Below, piece by piece: positions 19,939 to 36,943 of a DNA stretch of 47,880 nt. The stretch spans positions 1-47,880 of the IMG/VR virus record IMGVR_UViG_3300038678_000083, one strand, 5' to 3'. The DNA comes from a virus. The notes under the pieces were generated by a model, which saw only the letters and a list, made by a program, of their open reading frames with translations, searched no databases and was not told where the DNA came from. Each line of letters opens with the position of its first letter. Position 1 is the first letter of the stretch. The position numbers and the translations under genes are program-made.

Positions 19939-21621
19939 CTATTCAGGCAAGGCAGCAGGTTCGCTGTCTTGGTTATTTTGTTGATGCTGACCACCAGCCA
20001 CGCCGATAGCAACGCCACCATTTGCAGCAAGGAAGGCATTACAAGATGCTAAGCCCATAGTTTTGGCCGTTGCTTCGTCGATGCCTTTATTTAGGGCAAC
20101 TACTGCGGCGACTGCGGTGTCGAGCTCTTTATCTGCGTTGGCGTTAACCTTGACTTCAATCCCATCGACTTTCGTTAATAGGTTTTTAGCCCATTCAGGG
20201 GTGTCTTTATCGGCATCCACATTTGGCTCGTCAGCTTTACCGCCTATGGCCTCGTTTAGTGCCGCTTTAAGATCATCATCGGAAATATCGTCTTTCACAG
20301 ATATTCCTTTGTTGACCAGTAGGGCGATAATCTGTTTTCGATCCATAATGGACTCCATACTGTTAGTAACTGGTTTAAATTCAACAATTCGCTCGACTTC
20401 TGATTTTTCGCCTACAAAAACGATTTCATCATCAACCTTTGCGTATGATTGCCTGAATAGTTTATCATTATCCCCACGATATACAAAATTGTCGTCAAAA
20501 ATCTCCATTGGCCAGAATGAACAGCAATTATCTTGGCGTCCTTCGTTTAGCTTTTGGAATATCTTTTCATGTACATCGCTGTGACTCAAATTATTACCTT
20601 GAAGCACTGAGAATACTTTATTCAATACCTTTTTGAAAAAGCCTTGTTTATTGTTATTCGTTGGCTCATCATCAAATCGATTAATATAAACCTTGGCGTG
20701 ATCATTATCACCAGCATTAGTAATCGGCTGCTTAACCGCGTGAGGTACACCGTCAATCACATCAGCAAATAAATTTGTGTAACTGGCAAAGTTATCAACA
20801 TCGTCTTGGTTGAAGTTTAAGAAGAACTTACGAAAATTAGTACTTGGCTTATCGGTTGAATTGGTAAATACCTTAATTCGTTCTAATGCTGCCGACTCAT
20901 TCCATGCAAAATCATTTGGTGCCAATGGTAGTTGCATAGCAGGAGTGCTGGCGTTAACTGTCAAGGAAACATCCTCAATGTCTATTTTTTCACCTTTTGA
21001 ATTGGTGAACATTCCTATACCTTCAACATTGTTTTTTGCGCCTGGTTCGATATCAGGATTTAATATTGCACTATGGTTAAGTTCGAATATCTCTGTAACT
21101 TCAGCGCTAAACCGTTCACCATCTGGGCCTATGCCTTTTTTTGTATCGTCTACTGACAGGTATAAACCAGTACTTCGATCTATCGGTAACTTTTTATCTA
21201 TTCTATTAACTAACCATTCAGCTTGTGGAACCGTTTTTGCCAACTCAAAATTGATATAAGTATTAGATACTAAAATATCACCATCAACACGCCAGTCAGT
21301 ATCGAAGGCATGAACATTATGCCCCGCAAAAGTTAAAGGGTCATTTGCATCCATGAAATTACCATCTTCGTCTGATGGATGTGATAAAGGAGCTGGTATT
21401 CTTGCATTTGAAGACATTAGGTTGTTGGATATTTTATCAAATGGTTCTTCAGCATATCGAATGCCATTCATTACCGAGCCACGTATCATGTGTTTGGTGT
21501 CTTCGATCACAACAAAATTAGCAAATATGTCTTTACCTGCAACCTTTCCAACATGCATTCGTTTTGTTTTTGCATTTTTTGTTGCTGTTGATGAATTATG
21601 TCTGATTAGTTTTTTTGGCAT
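19939..21621 (-). CDS. Prohead protease fused to scaffold (DUF2213-like)
   Basis: 560 residues. Residues about 20-215 look like a DUF2213 prohead protease: PAPLSHPSDEDGNF near 95-108, then DRSTGLYLSVDD and TEIFELNHSAILNPDIEPGA. Residues about 425-560 are charged and helical (DISDDDLKAALNEAIGG; ends Gln/Asn-rich), as expected for scaffold, with an internal MESIMDRKQ that could allow a separate scaffold start. The ATG at 21621 sits immediately after an intrinsic terminator, whose 3' arm contains the only purine-rich ribosome-site candidate (AGGG). Confidence 0.78.
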   Translation of the reverse strand: MPKKLIRHNSSTATKNAKTKRMHVGKVAGKDIFANFVVIEDTKHMIRGSVMNGIRYAEEPFDKISNNLMSSNARIPAPLSHPSDEDGNFMDANDPLTFAGHNVHAFDTDWRVDGDILVSNTYINFELAKTVPQAEWLVNRIDKKLPIDRSTGLYLSVDDTKKGIGPDGERFSAEVTEIFELNHSAILNPDIEPGAKNNVEGIGMFTNSKGEKIDIEDVSLTVNASTPAMQLPLAPNDFAWNESAALERIKVFTNSTDKPSTNFRKFFLNFNQDDVDNFASYTNLFADVIDGVPHAVKQPITNAGDNDHAKVYINRFDDEPTNNNKQGFFKKVLNKVFSVLQGNNLSHSDVHEKIFQKLNEGRQDNCCSFWPMEIFDDNFVYRGDNDKLFRQSYAKVDDEIVFVGEKSEVERIVEFKPVTNSMESIMDRKQIIALLVNKGISVKDDISDDDLKAALNEAIGGKADEPNVDADKDTPEWAKNLLTKVDGIEVKVNANADKELDTAVAAVVALNKGIDEATAKTMGLASCNAFLAANGGVAIGVAGGQHQQNNQDSEPAALPE

Positions 21622-21624
21622 AAC

Positions 21625-21650
21625 AAAAAGCCCTATTGAATTAATAGGGC
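21625..21650 (-). terminator. Intrinsic terminator ending the ncRNA, overlapping the protease ribosome site
   Basis: On the minus strand: 8-bp stem GCCCTATT/AATAGGGC with 5-base loop AATTC, followed by TTTTT, ending four bases before the protease ATG. It would end the ncRNA transcript at about 21625. The second arm contains AGGG, so when folded it would also hide the ribosome site of the protease gene. Confidence 0.82.
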
Positions 21651-21692
21651 AATGATAGCATATTCTTATTTTTATTTATAATTGTTGTTATT

Positions 21693-21812
21693 TGGTGCTA
21701 ACCCTAGGAATCGAACCTAAGCATCATGTAAATCATTTATCGATGTAATTTACAAATATGAACCGTTATCAGCTTAATCATGGCTAGTCTTTCCTAGCAG
21801 TCAGAGCCTAGC
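21693..21812 (-). other. ncRNA module 3: T-arm-like hairpin with acceptor strand and CCA
   Basis: T-arm-like hairpin TTAGG-TTCGATT-CCTAG (21720-21704), then GGTTAGC, A and CCA (ending 21693), exactly tRNA-like spacing. The best 5' partner is GCTAGGC (21812-21806), pairing at six of seven positions with one G-U. In between lies a GCTAG/CTAGC hairpin and an ATTTACA-closed stem. It may be a degenerate tRNA or part of the large RNA. Confidence 0.45.
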
Positions 21813-21914
21813 TCAGTCGGGGTTTTTATTTAGGGCGCGTATTCCGGCTTTTACGGCAGTACGACAGGTTAAAGATAGCTATCGCCCAACTATCACCACT
21901 TGAAACCAACGTTG

Positions 21915-22043
21915 TTCTAATACACTTAGTTATCGAGTCTATAATTTCTGGTGCTGTAATCCTTTAACGGCCTTTAGCTCAACGGGCTTGCCATCCCCAA
22001 TTCGATTTAACTAACACCGACTCGATAACTAAATGTACTAAAA
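21915..22043 (-). repeat. 25-bp inverted repeat within the ncRNA
   Basis: Arms 22043-22019 and 21939-21915 pair continuously over 25 positions in minus-strand RNA: 22 Watson-Crick pairs and 3 G-U pairs. In plus-strand RNA the same three positions would be A-C mismatches, so the helix favours minus-strand transcription. The 79-base loop (21940-22018) begins and ends with a further helix, GGTGTT/AGCACC. Confidence 0.85.
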
Positions 22044-22044
22044 T

Positions 22045-22189
22045 TGGTTGTTGGGTAAGGAGTCGAACCTCACTGGCGTTCATCTTACACATATTCATTA
22101 ACCGATAGAGTTCAGGTTGCAACCATTTCTCGTATTAACTTCAACTGATGACTAGCATTGCAGAAATACCCTTTATCCGCCTACCAACA
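22045..22189 (-). other. ncRNA module 2: T-arm-like hairpin with closing helix and CCA
   Basis: T-arm-like hairpin TGAGG-TTCGACT-CCTTA (22072-22056), next to CCCAACA, then A and CCA (ending 22045). The 6-bp partner TGTTGG lies at 22189-22184. Total 145 bases, too long for a tRNA without an intron or large insert; no clean anticodon loop is visible. Confidence 0.5.
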
Positions 22190-22505
22190 TTTGTTGCCGC
22201 ATCTCTACGGCGAAAGGTGTTGCCTGACTGGAGCTTATCCCAGTATCTACGCTATTTACAGGGCTTGTTGCACTTTTCAGGTTAATGACTGGTGCATGAT
22301 GATGGCGTTACCATCGTGTTACATTGTCTTGCCCTCGGTTGCTGCTGTTTAGCCAAAGATACTAATAGATGCTATGGCCGCTGTATTCAAATCTTGGTAC
22401 CCAAAAACCGCAATTAAGCGGCTAAGGGTGGCACTTCTTATGCAGCTCAGCTTGAGTGGTTTTCTCAGTGGTGCTTAATGCGTACCAGGGCATCTTTACA
22501 ATTTA

Positions 22506-22676
22506 TCCCTGGCTGGAATCGAACCAGCATTCCTTGCGCTAGACTAAAATTACGCTTTGTTTCTGTATGCTCGATGGTAGTCAAATCCTTAAGCAACCAA
22601 AAAACCATTGTCATCACCCGTTGAGTTATTATCAAAGCAGCTTTTCTTTAACTTTTATTCTGAGTAACTACAGGGA
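22506..22676 (-). other. ncRNA module 1: T-arm-like hairpin with closing helix
   Basis: T-arm-like hairpin GCTGG-TTCGATT-CCAGC (22528-22512), with the TTCRA loop of tRNA T arms. It abuts a 6-bp closing helix TCCCTG (22676-22671) with CAGGGA (22511-22506), giving acceptor-T-arm geometry. The intervening 142 bases do not fold into normal D and anticodon arms, and there is no CCA. Confidence 0.55.
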
Positions 22677-22723: not shown

Positions 22724-24178
22724 TTATCTTCTCTTTTTGAACATTAGGGAGATAGAAGTAGGCACCCCTTCAGTAGGCGACATAGCCATAATAACGCATT
22801 CAACAAGGTTTGGTGATGCAACGCCGCGCTTAGCCATTTTATCTTTTGGTTCGACTCTAAACTTACCACTTAAATATTCACGCCTTGGCTGGCTGGCTTC
22901 TGCTTTCATTTTGTTCAGTGTTTTTTCTGGTATTAATTCACTATCAAAACTAATGAGCATTTGCTCATCATAGTCTTTACCGTTGATCGCTTTCCATGCG
23001 TTATAACATCTAACTCTAAAACACCAGTAAGCCTGGGCTTTTAGGTTGATGAACGTTTCGCCATTAGTTCTTGATGGTGTGGTTTTAACGCCAGAAATAG
23101 TGGTTATATGGTGTCCTTCATCAAAAGGCGCATCAGGATCGACAACCTTGGCACTGGCTGCAAATGCTGTGATTGTCGGTGGTATGCGACTGCTGTATTC
23201 CATTGCTGCCACACGCTGCCTTAGCTCACCTTTCGCACCAGCCCCAACACCTATACTATCAAATACTATTTCTTCACTGCCGTATGCAACTGAGCTATCC
23301 CACACGGAATTTGCAGCACTATTCGGATCGTTATCCTTCCATTCTCTAAGCGCTTCAACGACAAAGCCATGGATATTGCATTCAGCATTAAAATCTTTAC
23401 CCTCATCGGCGACATCAAAGCCGGTTTTCTTTCCACCACTAGGTTTTATATCTAATTTTTTATGTAGGTCAATTGTGGCCGCTATCCATTTAGGCGGTAT
23501 TATCGATAGATCACTATTGGCAACGGGCTCACCTAGATAAACATGATCATACATGTCTGGATCTTGCTCTTTCATCAATTCGGCATCGTCGCGCAGTTCT
23601 TGAGGGAATCGTGGATTTTCAGGGAAGTTTATTTTTTTTACTATGCAGTATCTTTTGCCATTTTTATAGTCAGGGTAGATTCTTTCAGTGACAAATCGTT
23701 TATGAGTGTCATCAAGTGGTGATTCAGGGTTATAGCTTACCCATATTTCAGAGCCACTCTTTCTTAAGGTTGGTATAAGGAACTTCCAACTCGTTTCGGT
23801 TACTGCTGCAGCTTCTTCAACCCATACAGCATCAAAACCAGCGTAACCTTTTATTTTTTGTTGGTTCCTATGTAACCCATCAAATTTAATAACGCCGCCG
23901 GTTGATGGTACGGATATTTCATTATTTATTATCCTGAAATATTTATGTAAATCTCTGCGATCAATCTCGTCAACGAATTCCTGGTAAACAGAATCATCTA
24001 GGCTTTTCATGAACTCACGCATACAAACTAAACGCCAGCCATAACACATAACATTATTTAATAAGATAGTTGCAAATGTTCTTGTCTTGGCCGAACCACG
24101 ACCACCATAAGCAACTTTAAATCTAGCAGGCTGCAGGTATTCTTCAAATGCAGGGAATATGTCGCACGGTTTACTCAT
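22724..24178 (-). CDS. terL: Terminase large subunit
   Basis: 484 residues. The packaging motor ATPase and genome-cutting nuclease. Walker A GGRGSAKT at 25-32, Walker B FDAVWVEE at about 115-122, coupling motif SYNPE at 148-152. The RNase H-like nuclease domain begins near residue 250 (TGFDVADEGKDFN) with a further acidic EEIVFDSIGVGAG. It resembles P22 gp2/PBSX-type terminases, which package by headful. It overlaps terS by 8 bases. Confidence 0.95.
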   Translation of the reverse strand: MSKPCDIFPAFEEYLQPARFKVAYGGRGSAKTRTFATILLNNVMCYGWRLVCMREFMKSLDDSVYQEFVDEIDRRDLHKYFRIINNEISVPSTGGVIKFDGLHRNQQKIKGYAGFDAVWVEEAAAVTETSWKFLIPTLRKSGSEIWVSYNPESPLDDTHKRFVTERIYPDYKNGKRYCIVKKINFPENPRFPQELRDDAELMKEQDPDMYDHVYLGEPVANSDLSIIPPKWIAATIDLHKKLDIKPSGGKKTGFDVADEGKDFNAECNIHGFVVEALREWKDNDPNSAANSVWDSSVAYGSEEIVFDSIGVGAGAKGELRQRVAAMEYSSRIPPTITAFAASAKVVDPDAPFDEGHHITTISGVKTTPSRTNGETFINLKAQAYWCFRVRCYNAWKAINGKDYDEQMLISFDSELIPEKTLNKMKAEASQPRREYLSGKFRVEPKDKMAKRGVASPNLVECVIMAMSPTEGVPTSISLMFKKRR

Positions 24179-35528: not shown

Positions 35529-35562
35529 TTGCTTTGTGTTTAGTTATGGATTATATTTGGTT
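35529..35562 (+). promoter_or_regulatory. Operator-bearing promoter for the GHKL operon
   Basis: -35 TTGCTT (35529-35534), 17-bp spacer, -10 TATATT (35552-35557). The operator TTGTGTTTAGTT (35534-35545) covers the spacer; a weaker copy TTATATTTGGTT overlaps the -10. It directly follows the ssb terminator. Confidence 0.68.
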
Positions 35563-35749: not shown

Positions 35750-36943
35750 ATGAATGCAGCAATTGAAAGTACATTAAACCAGGATAAAATTTATTTACCA
35801 ATTTCTGATAAGTACGTTGATCACTGGGGTTTTTGGGAAGCAGCCAGAGAAATACTTCAAAATGCCATTGACACCAAAAATTTTAGCGTTGGCAAAATGG
35901 AAAGCAGTGGAGTATTGAAAGTTAAATCATTGGCCGGTGCTATGGATTTATCAACATTAATGCTTGGTGAATCAAGTAAACGTGATGATGAAAATTCAAT
36001 CGGTAAATATGGCGAAGGCTATAAGCTTGCTTTGTTGGTATTAAGTCGCCTTGGCTATAACGTGCTCATCAAAAACGGTTTTGATTGCTGGCGGGTTAGT
36101 ATTGATATTCATCCCCAGTTAAATGTCAACTGCCTAACGATTGATGTATTTAAAGATACTTATATTGATGATGGCGATGAAAACGAAGTGTCTTTTGTTG
36201 TTACCGGTGTTAAGCCTGAAGATTTTGAGATTATTGATCAAAACTATTTGGGTGATATTGATTGCTTGGATCCTGATTATATCGAAGTCATTGCAGAGAA
36301 TAACGGCTCTCATTGTTTGTGTGTTGATGGAATGTATGACAATAATAAAGTTTTTGTTGGTGGATTATACGTTTGTGATCTAGGTGATGGCTATAAATAC
36401 AGTTACAATTTTGCGCCAAACATACTTGACTTAGATCGTGATAGAAAGTCAGTTAGCGAATTTTATTTACAGCGAGAAGTTACAAAGCTACTTGCTGAAT
36501 CTGGTAATATTGAGTTGCTTATCGAGATGGCAAGTAATAATTACAAGGATGTAAGTGATTACTATTCAGTTAAAGAGCTAACCAATGTTTGCGGCTCATA
36601 CTCTGATGGCTACGACGAAAAAACAGTAAAAATAGCTGTTGATGCATTCAAATCAAAAAATGGTGAAAAAGCATACCCTATCAGTGAAGATACTGATTTT
36701 AGTAAGACAAAATTAATCAGAGAGCAATGCGTTAGTATCGGACTAATTCCTGTAACTGTTAAAAAAGTTTTATTTGATATTATCAAGGGCGAATTTAAAG
36801 ACGACCTCAAAATAGAAAAGTTAAAGGGTAAAATTAGCGATAATCTAACCGATTTCATCAAGCTAAACCGAAATAAAATGCAACCGATAGCTATCAAGCG
36901 ATTAAAGGCTATGGTTAAATCGATTAAACTTCAAGGCGAATAA
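35750..36943 (+). CDS. MORC/Hsp90-like GHKL ATPase
   Basis: 397 residues. N-box EILQNAID (34-41) coordinates Mg-ATP in this fold. LGESSKRDDENSIGKYGEGY (72-91) matches the G-x-S-x-K...IG-x-Y-G-x-G-x ATP lid of MORC and Hsp90-like proteins. The usual G1 motif (DxGxG) is not visible; LAGAMDL (61-67) is in its place without the aspartate, so nucleotide binding may be altered. The rest has an S5-like region and a helical C-terminus, with no CXXC, kinase or nuclease part seen. Function unknown. Confidence 0.72.
   Translation: MNAAIESTLNQDKIYLPISDKYVDHWGFWEAAREILQNAIDTKNFSVGKMESSGVLKVKSLAGAMDLSTLMLGESSKRDDENSIGKYGEGYKLALLVLSRLGYNVLIKNGFDCWRVSIDIHPQLNVNCLTIDVFKDTYIDDGDENEVSFVVTGVKPEDFEIIDQNYLGDIDCLDPDYIEVIAENNGSHCLCVDGMYDNNKVFVGGLYVCDLGDGYKYSYNFAPNILDLDRDRKSVSEFYLQREVTKLLAESGNIELLIEMASNNYKDVSDYYSVKELTNVCGSYSDGYDEKTVKIAVDAFKSKNGEKAYPISEDTDFSKTKLIREQCVSIGLIPVTVKKVLFDIIKGEFKDDLKIEKLKGKISDNLTDFIKLNRNKMQPIAIKRLKAMVKSIKLQGE

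Follow-up and report, generated by a model that had tools for sequence, protein, structure and literature searches.

A putative large non-coding RNA between the terminase and capsid genes of a phage, and its probable kinship with structured RNAs of Vibrio phages

GOLLD is a large phage RNA that lies near or contains tRNAs, with many members above 800 nt; it has been reported with tRNAs in a linker and to form cages, and ROOL, also a large phage RNA, is frequently found near tRNA islands (PMC12286853). In the Vibrio phage ICP1, an abundant, unclassified non-coding RNA of about 800 nt comes from the gap between gp139 and gp140 (PMC7567579). Here, we analyzed a stretch of a marine phage, positions 21625-22676 of a 47,880-base IMG/VR virus record, which is referred to as a whole as the window; features of the window are on the minus strand unless indicated otherwise.

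Like GOLLD and ROOL, the RNA predicted for this stretch would be large, phage-borne and tRNA-associated, and the initial annotation had placed it in one of these classes or in a new class using tRNA-like modules. However, the stretch gave no match in Rfam 15 at gathering thresholds, the GOLLD and ROOL models had no match on the region up to E = 10 with permissive filters, and neither model matched the homologous Vibrio-phage RNAs described below. Since no Rfam family matches, the window RNA is not assigned to GOLLD or ROOL, and this part of the earlier proposal was abandoned. Readings as a group I intron, a tmRNA or a permuted tRNA, made by eye, were supported by neither Rfam nor ARAGORN. The ICP1 transcript resembles the window RNA in its location within a 1-kb gene-free gap of a phage. 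Nevertheless, the ICP1 gap (L148, 8098-9108) contained none of the signatures A, B and C defined below, no match to the covariance model of A and no Rfam match above gathering score; the transcript was rejected as a family member because none of the signatures is shared. A 16-nt match of this gap to the Vibrio-phage locus L128 had an E value of 0.43.

The stretch is flanked by the gene for the terminase large subunit (22724-24178; Pfam Terminase_3, 1.6e-39) and by that for a DUF2213/prohead-protease-like protein (phrog_760, from profile matches; 19939-21621), which is followed by the decoration protein gene and then by the major capsid protein gene. The closest terminase relatives are found in Pseudoalteromonas phages (about 70%), and the closest capsid relatives in Pseudoalteromonas phage H103 and Aeromonas phages (55-61%). 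The interval from the terminase stop (22724) to the protease ATG (21621) contained no minus-strand open reading frame (ORF) of at least 60 aa, with stops throughout the frames, which bears out the earlier description of the stretch as gene-free. A coding remnant was discarded, as no frame had worthwhile similarity to the relatives. The terminase-protease interval is hypervariable: the RNA stretch was absent from all of the more than 120 loci of terminase and capsid relatives, where the interval holds variable small ORFs or is empty. It is thus a variable slot, occupied by the RNA in the window.

A phage-specific promoter is located at 22710-22680, with a -35-like TTGCGT (22710-22705), a 17-nt spacer and the -10 element TATATT (22687-22682); the expected start point is at about 22675. 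Its sequence, TTGCNTTGTGTTTNGTTNTGGNTTATATTTG (27 specified bases), has one exact match at 22710-22680 (-) and a second at 35529-35559 (+), with 0 occurrences expected in the window scan, and a looser form of the consensus was found twice in the viral contig L133 and once in L111. A generic sigma-70 scan misses this promoter. Both the exact repeat and the recurrence in L133 and L111 support well the previous claim that the RNA has its own promoter. The second exact copy lies upstream of an ORF at 35750-36943. The non-coding RNA is expected to extend from 22676, after the promoter, to a predicted 3' end at about 21690, and it would comprise, within a segment lacking ORFs, signatures A, B and C and three T-arms.

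A terminator of its own had also been proposed for the RNA. The hairpin and T-run before the protease ATG are indeed present (21650-21625, found by scan), but they are not specific to the RNA. In this module, about seven bases separate a GCTATAAT-like box from an 8-9-bp hairpin, after which come a T-run and the ATG; the module also precedes the protease gene of relatives without the RNA, in which the stems are altered yet still paired by compensatory changes. Because of this conservation in relatives lacking the RNA, the hairpin was attributed to the leader of the protease gene, although it may also end transcripts arriving from upstream. In phage C7, the module stands in front of another gene as well. 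The same arrangement of a TATAAT-like box, a covarying hairpin, a T-run and an ATG was observed at 21625-21660 of the window and in L003, L009, L017-L020, L111 and L123; such a promoter with a terminator-like hairpin immediately behind it resembles an attenuator or a 5' stabiliser.

Searches for homologues with blastn at E 0.01 against phages and plasmids retrieved nothing. With E values up to 10, a 29-nt match (window 22219-22190) was detected in Vibrio phages, mostly in unannotated DNA. It falls in signature block A (22223-22187), which contains the hairpin GCCGUA-GAGA-UGCGGC (22211-22196). At E up to 1, block A was detected in 61 phage records, of which 60 are from Vibrio phages; some of these carry block A alone. 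A covariance model, R1 (37 positions, 13 sequences), was trained with the window left out; it recognized the window block A with an E value of 6.9e-8 (5.6e-8 in another run; next best in the window, 0.8), block A itself having first been found by a search that started from the window. Hairpin A with its flanking CACCUUUC, one of the features by which family membership was judged, is present in the window, and the hairpin A stem shows compensatory changes at 3 pairs among the relatives.

Two further signatures link the window to these RNAs. Hairpin B, GCCGUAAAAGCCGGAAUACG, is located at 21857-21838, and hairpin C, GACU-GCUAG-GAAAGA-CUAGC, at 21802-21783. In 2.56 Mb searched on both strands, the B pattern GCCGTNAAARCCGGA occurred only in family RNAs and the window, and the C pattern, GAC[AT]-stem-GAAAGA-stem, in family RNAs, the window and one chance match; both patterns were defined after the window had been inspected, and these counts are a post hoc control. 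The stem differences of both hairpins from those of L128 are compensatory (G-C to A-U in B; GCUAG/CUAGC in place of GCUCG/CGAGC in C), and the order of B and C in the window differs from that in L128. With A and the T-arms masked, the similarity between the window and L128 exceeded that of 200/200 shuffles under strict settings and was weaker for other members; under lenient settings, several relatives had no significant residual similarity to the window.

The homologues form an RNA family found in dozens of Vibrio phages, including 1.251.O, PS10B.1, PS17B.1 and other siphophages. The RNA is unnamed, and no paper describing the family was found in the literature searched, most subscription journals lying outside its scope. 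The siphophage loci span 0.7-1.3 kb, contain few or no genes and run opposite to the structural genes; they possess a TTGACA-17-TAGATT promoter and a GCCCGC/GCGGGC terminator. Most of them embed tRNAs (Gly, Tyr, Ser, Met). The window RNA shares with them its size class, the three signatures A, B and C, a promoter of its own and, putatively, the association with tRNAs or tRNA-like arms. In contrast, it differs in its gene neighbourhood and contains neither a canonical tRNA nor the detectable core, CACGCCGYAAGG...ACUAUACGGAC, which is conserved among the Vibrio RNAs with compensatory changes at 4 pairs: a covariance model of this core built from the Vibrio RNAs (R2) had no credible match in the window. 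Because of this, homology of the window rests on A, B and C and on the layout; a gapped, collinear resemblance to L137 is suggestive only. On these grounds, the window RNA probably belongs to the Vibrio-phage family. The earlier alternative of a new class using tRNA-like modules is supported by A, B and C and by the compensatory changes in relatives, and the homologue collection that had been proposed as a check yielded Vibrio-phage RNAs with compensatory changes in hairpin A, the core and the module arm described below.

The layout is repeated in L133, an IMG/VR contig that was found by a pattern scan for block A and not among the terminase or capsid relatives (R1, E = 2.8e-5). Its gene order is terminase (37% identical), small ORFs, the RNA, a glycosyltransferase, phrog_760, decoration and capsid. 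In the window, the T2 unit (see below) starts six bases downstream of block A, and in L133 a tRNA-like unit starts about nine bases downstream of it. L133 represents another phage of this structural lineage, with a related RNA occupying the equivalent slot. A small hydrophobic ORF lies directly before block A in L129 (2119-2274), L137, L144 and L133 (6765-6932, minus strand).

The T-arm motif GGTTCGANTCC is present in the window at exactly three sites (22525-22515, 22069-22059 and 21717-21707; 11 of 11 positions each) and nowhere else, confirming the three T-arm-like hairpins noticed initially. In T2 and T3, the T-arm continues into a 7-nt acceptor strand, A and CCA, which T1 does not have. 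In the T1 module (22676-22505; T-arm 22528-22512), a constrained fold allows a possible acceptor helix of UCCCUG (22676-22671) with CAGGGA (22511-22506). T2 lies directly after block A (22189-22045; T-arm 22072-22056), in the place of the tRNA-like module of L133; here UGUUGGU (22189-22183) may pair with CCCAACA, after which A and CCA run to 22045. T3 (21720-21693; T-arm 21720-21704) continues with GGUUAGC, A and CCA to 21693. Despite the three exact T-arms, no canonical tRNA was recognized in the stretch by ARAGORN or the Rfam tRNA model, so that the three ordinary tRNAs which the earlier interpretation had to fear were not found. ARAGORN reported no cloverleaf with or without introns, and a relaxed match at 21788-21693 was at noise level. 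Exact scans of viral contigs for the 3' ends of T2 and T3 and for the helix arm, and of genome contigs for T2, returned nothing. In another viral contig, L106 (1240-1290), a T-arm with acceptor strand and CCA and no ARAGORN cloverleaf lies upstream of the terminase gene.

With regard to folding, the 25-bp helix reported earlier was found as described, with arms of 25 nt each (22043-22019 and 21939-21915) enclosing 79 nt, and the 133-nt piece containing it folded with z = -7.0 against shuffles. The other pieces of the window were not more stable than their shuffles (z 0 to -1.3), the whole region reaching about z -3. All of the elements listed in the initial annotation are present, but by folding energy the claim that the stretch is rich in structure is supported for the long helix and not for the remaining pieces, and since the stretch outside this helix folds like shuffles, thermodynamics alone is insufficient to make the case. 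A hairpin GCCGC/GCGGTTTTT lies within the RNA at 22443-22418 (-), and an identical 19-mer is present in the relatives G006, G007 and G010.

In the relatives L138, L142 and L143, the helix GUCAGUUAAGAGUA/UACUCUUAACUGAC is capped by a tRNA-like domain that comprises D, anticodon and T arms and lacks a free 3' end or CCA. The same helix bears other caps in other members, its distal pairs changing on both sides, and the module arm shows compensatory changes at 5 pairs. Tested against shuffles, the tRNA-like cloverleaves on long helices in relatives gave z values of -4.8, -4.1 and -2.8; for L133, the piece with a cloverleaf on a long helix had z = -2.8. By comparison, the T units of the window may form tRNA-like arms on helices. 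In L143, an ORF with T5orf172/MUG113 (GIY-YIG-like) similarity is inserted between tRNA-like modules of the RNA region (751-1185).

In L134, L135, L145 and L146, block A also occurs by itself, ahead of endonuclease-like ORFs whose ribosome-binding site is masked by its outer stem. The ORF that follows matches PD-(D/E)XK in L145 and, below threshold, HNH in L146, and those in L134 and L135 had no Pfam match. Hairpins B and C are not in these leaders. The GAGA loop and CACCUUUC are invariant in the endonuclease leaders, which could be riboswitches or thermometers.

The explanation that we favour, and that we consider fairly probable as a whole, is a modular non-coding RNA with a length of about 0.98 kb, which would be transcribed from the minus strand by its own phage promoter, lodged in the variable slot between terminase and capsid genes, and which would be a diverged member of a large structured RNA family of Vibrio and related marine phages that is absent from Rfam. 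It would act as RNA rather than as message, and is predicted to adopt a multi-armed scaffold fold with tRNA or tRNA-like elbows at its tips. For GOLLD, a role in presenting or storing its linked tRNAs has been suggested; similarly, the window RNA might, during infection, present or store tRNA-like domains that are acted on by processing enzymes or bound by ribosomes or tRNA-binding factors, a function that we propose tentatively and regard as doubtful.

The stretch might instead be a graveyard of mobile elements and tRNAs without any function left at the RNA level. In this case, the slot would formerly have contained tRNAs and homing-endonuclease cassettes, block A being what remains of an endonuclease leader and the T-arms being decayed tRNAs. 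The stand-alone block A before endonuclease-like ORFs, with its stem over the ribosome-binding site, supports such a relic, as do the hypervariable slot and the unrecognizable bodies of the tRNA-like units. However, B and C do not fit it, since they are missing from the endonuclease leaders and differ from L128 by compensatory changes; moreover, the three T-loops are exact, L133 repeats the layout and the promoter is intact, and we consider a relic rather unlikely. Copies of host tRNA 3' ends left by attachment sites would explain why two T-arms run on into acceptor strand and CCA; nevertheless, the three copies within 1 kb are all different, and the reading was dropped, as barely conceivable, on account of the absence of the T2 3' end from genome and viral contigs.

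Two other accounts were considered. As an untranslated leader of the capsid operon, the stretch would be part of the late message, which would be regulated or attenuated by means of the hairpin and T-run ahead of the protease gene. That the stretch shares its strand with the terminase and capsid genes and ends in this hairpin just before the ATG would suit such a leader, which we nonetheless deem improbable, given that the leader module has its own -10-like element in relatives without the RNA and that the structural genes are on the other strand in the Vibrio-phage members. The reading as a diverged GOLLD or ROOL RNA, suggested by similar size, phage origin and tRNA association (PMC12286853), is very improbable in view of the lack of a match in the window or its homologues at permissive thresholds.

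The favoured reading, a scaffold-like member of the Vibrio-phage family, is new within a known kind, the large phage RNAs, and the tRNA-like arms are its unusual feature. It is conceivable, at somewhat less than an even chance, that the family consists of scaffolds with tRNA elbows, whose arms end in tRNA-like cloverleaves without a free acceptor end, and that these have spread horizontally among unrelated marine phages, gaining and losing real tRNAs and homing endonucleases as modules. GOLLD and ROOL illustrate that phages make giant, cage-forming RNAs near tRNAs to which no function is assigned. If cultured Vibrio phages have a separate family in which hairpins covary and tRNA-like domains are mounted on long helices, it would be tractable, offering many isolates, laboratory hosts and deletable modules, and it is relevant to the question of why tRNA arrays that include pseudo-tRNAs are found in phages.
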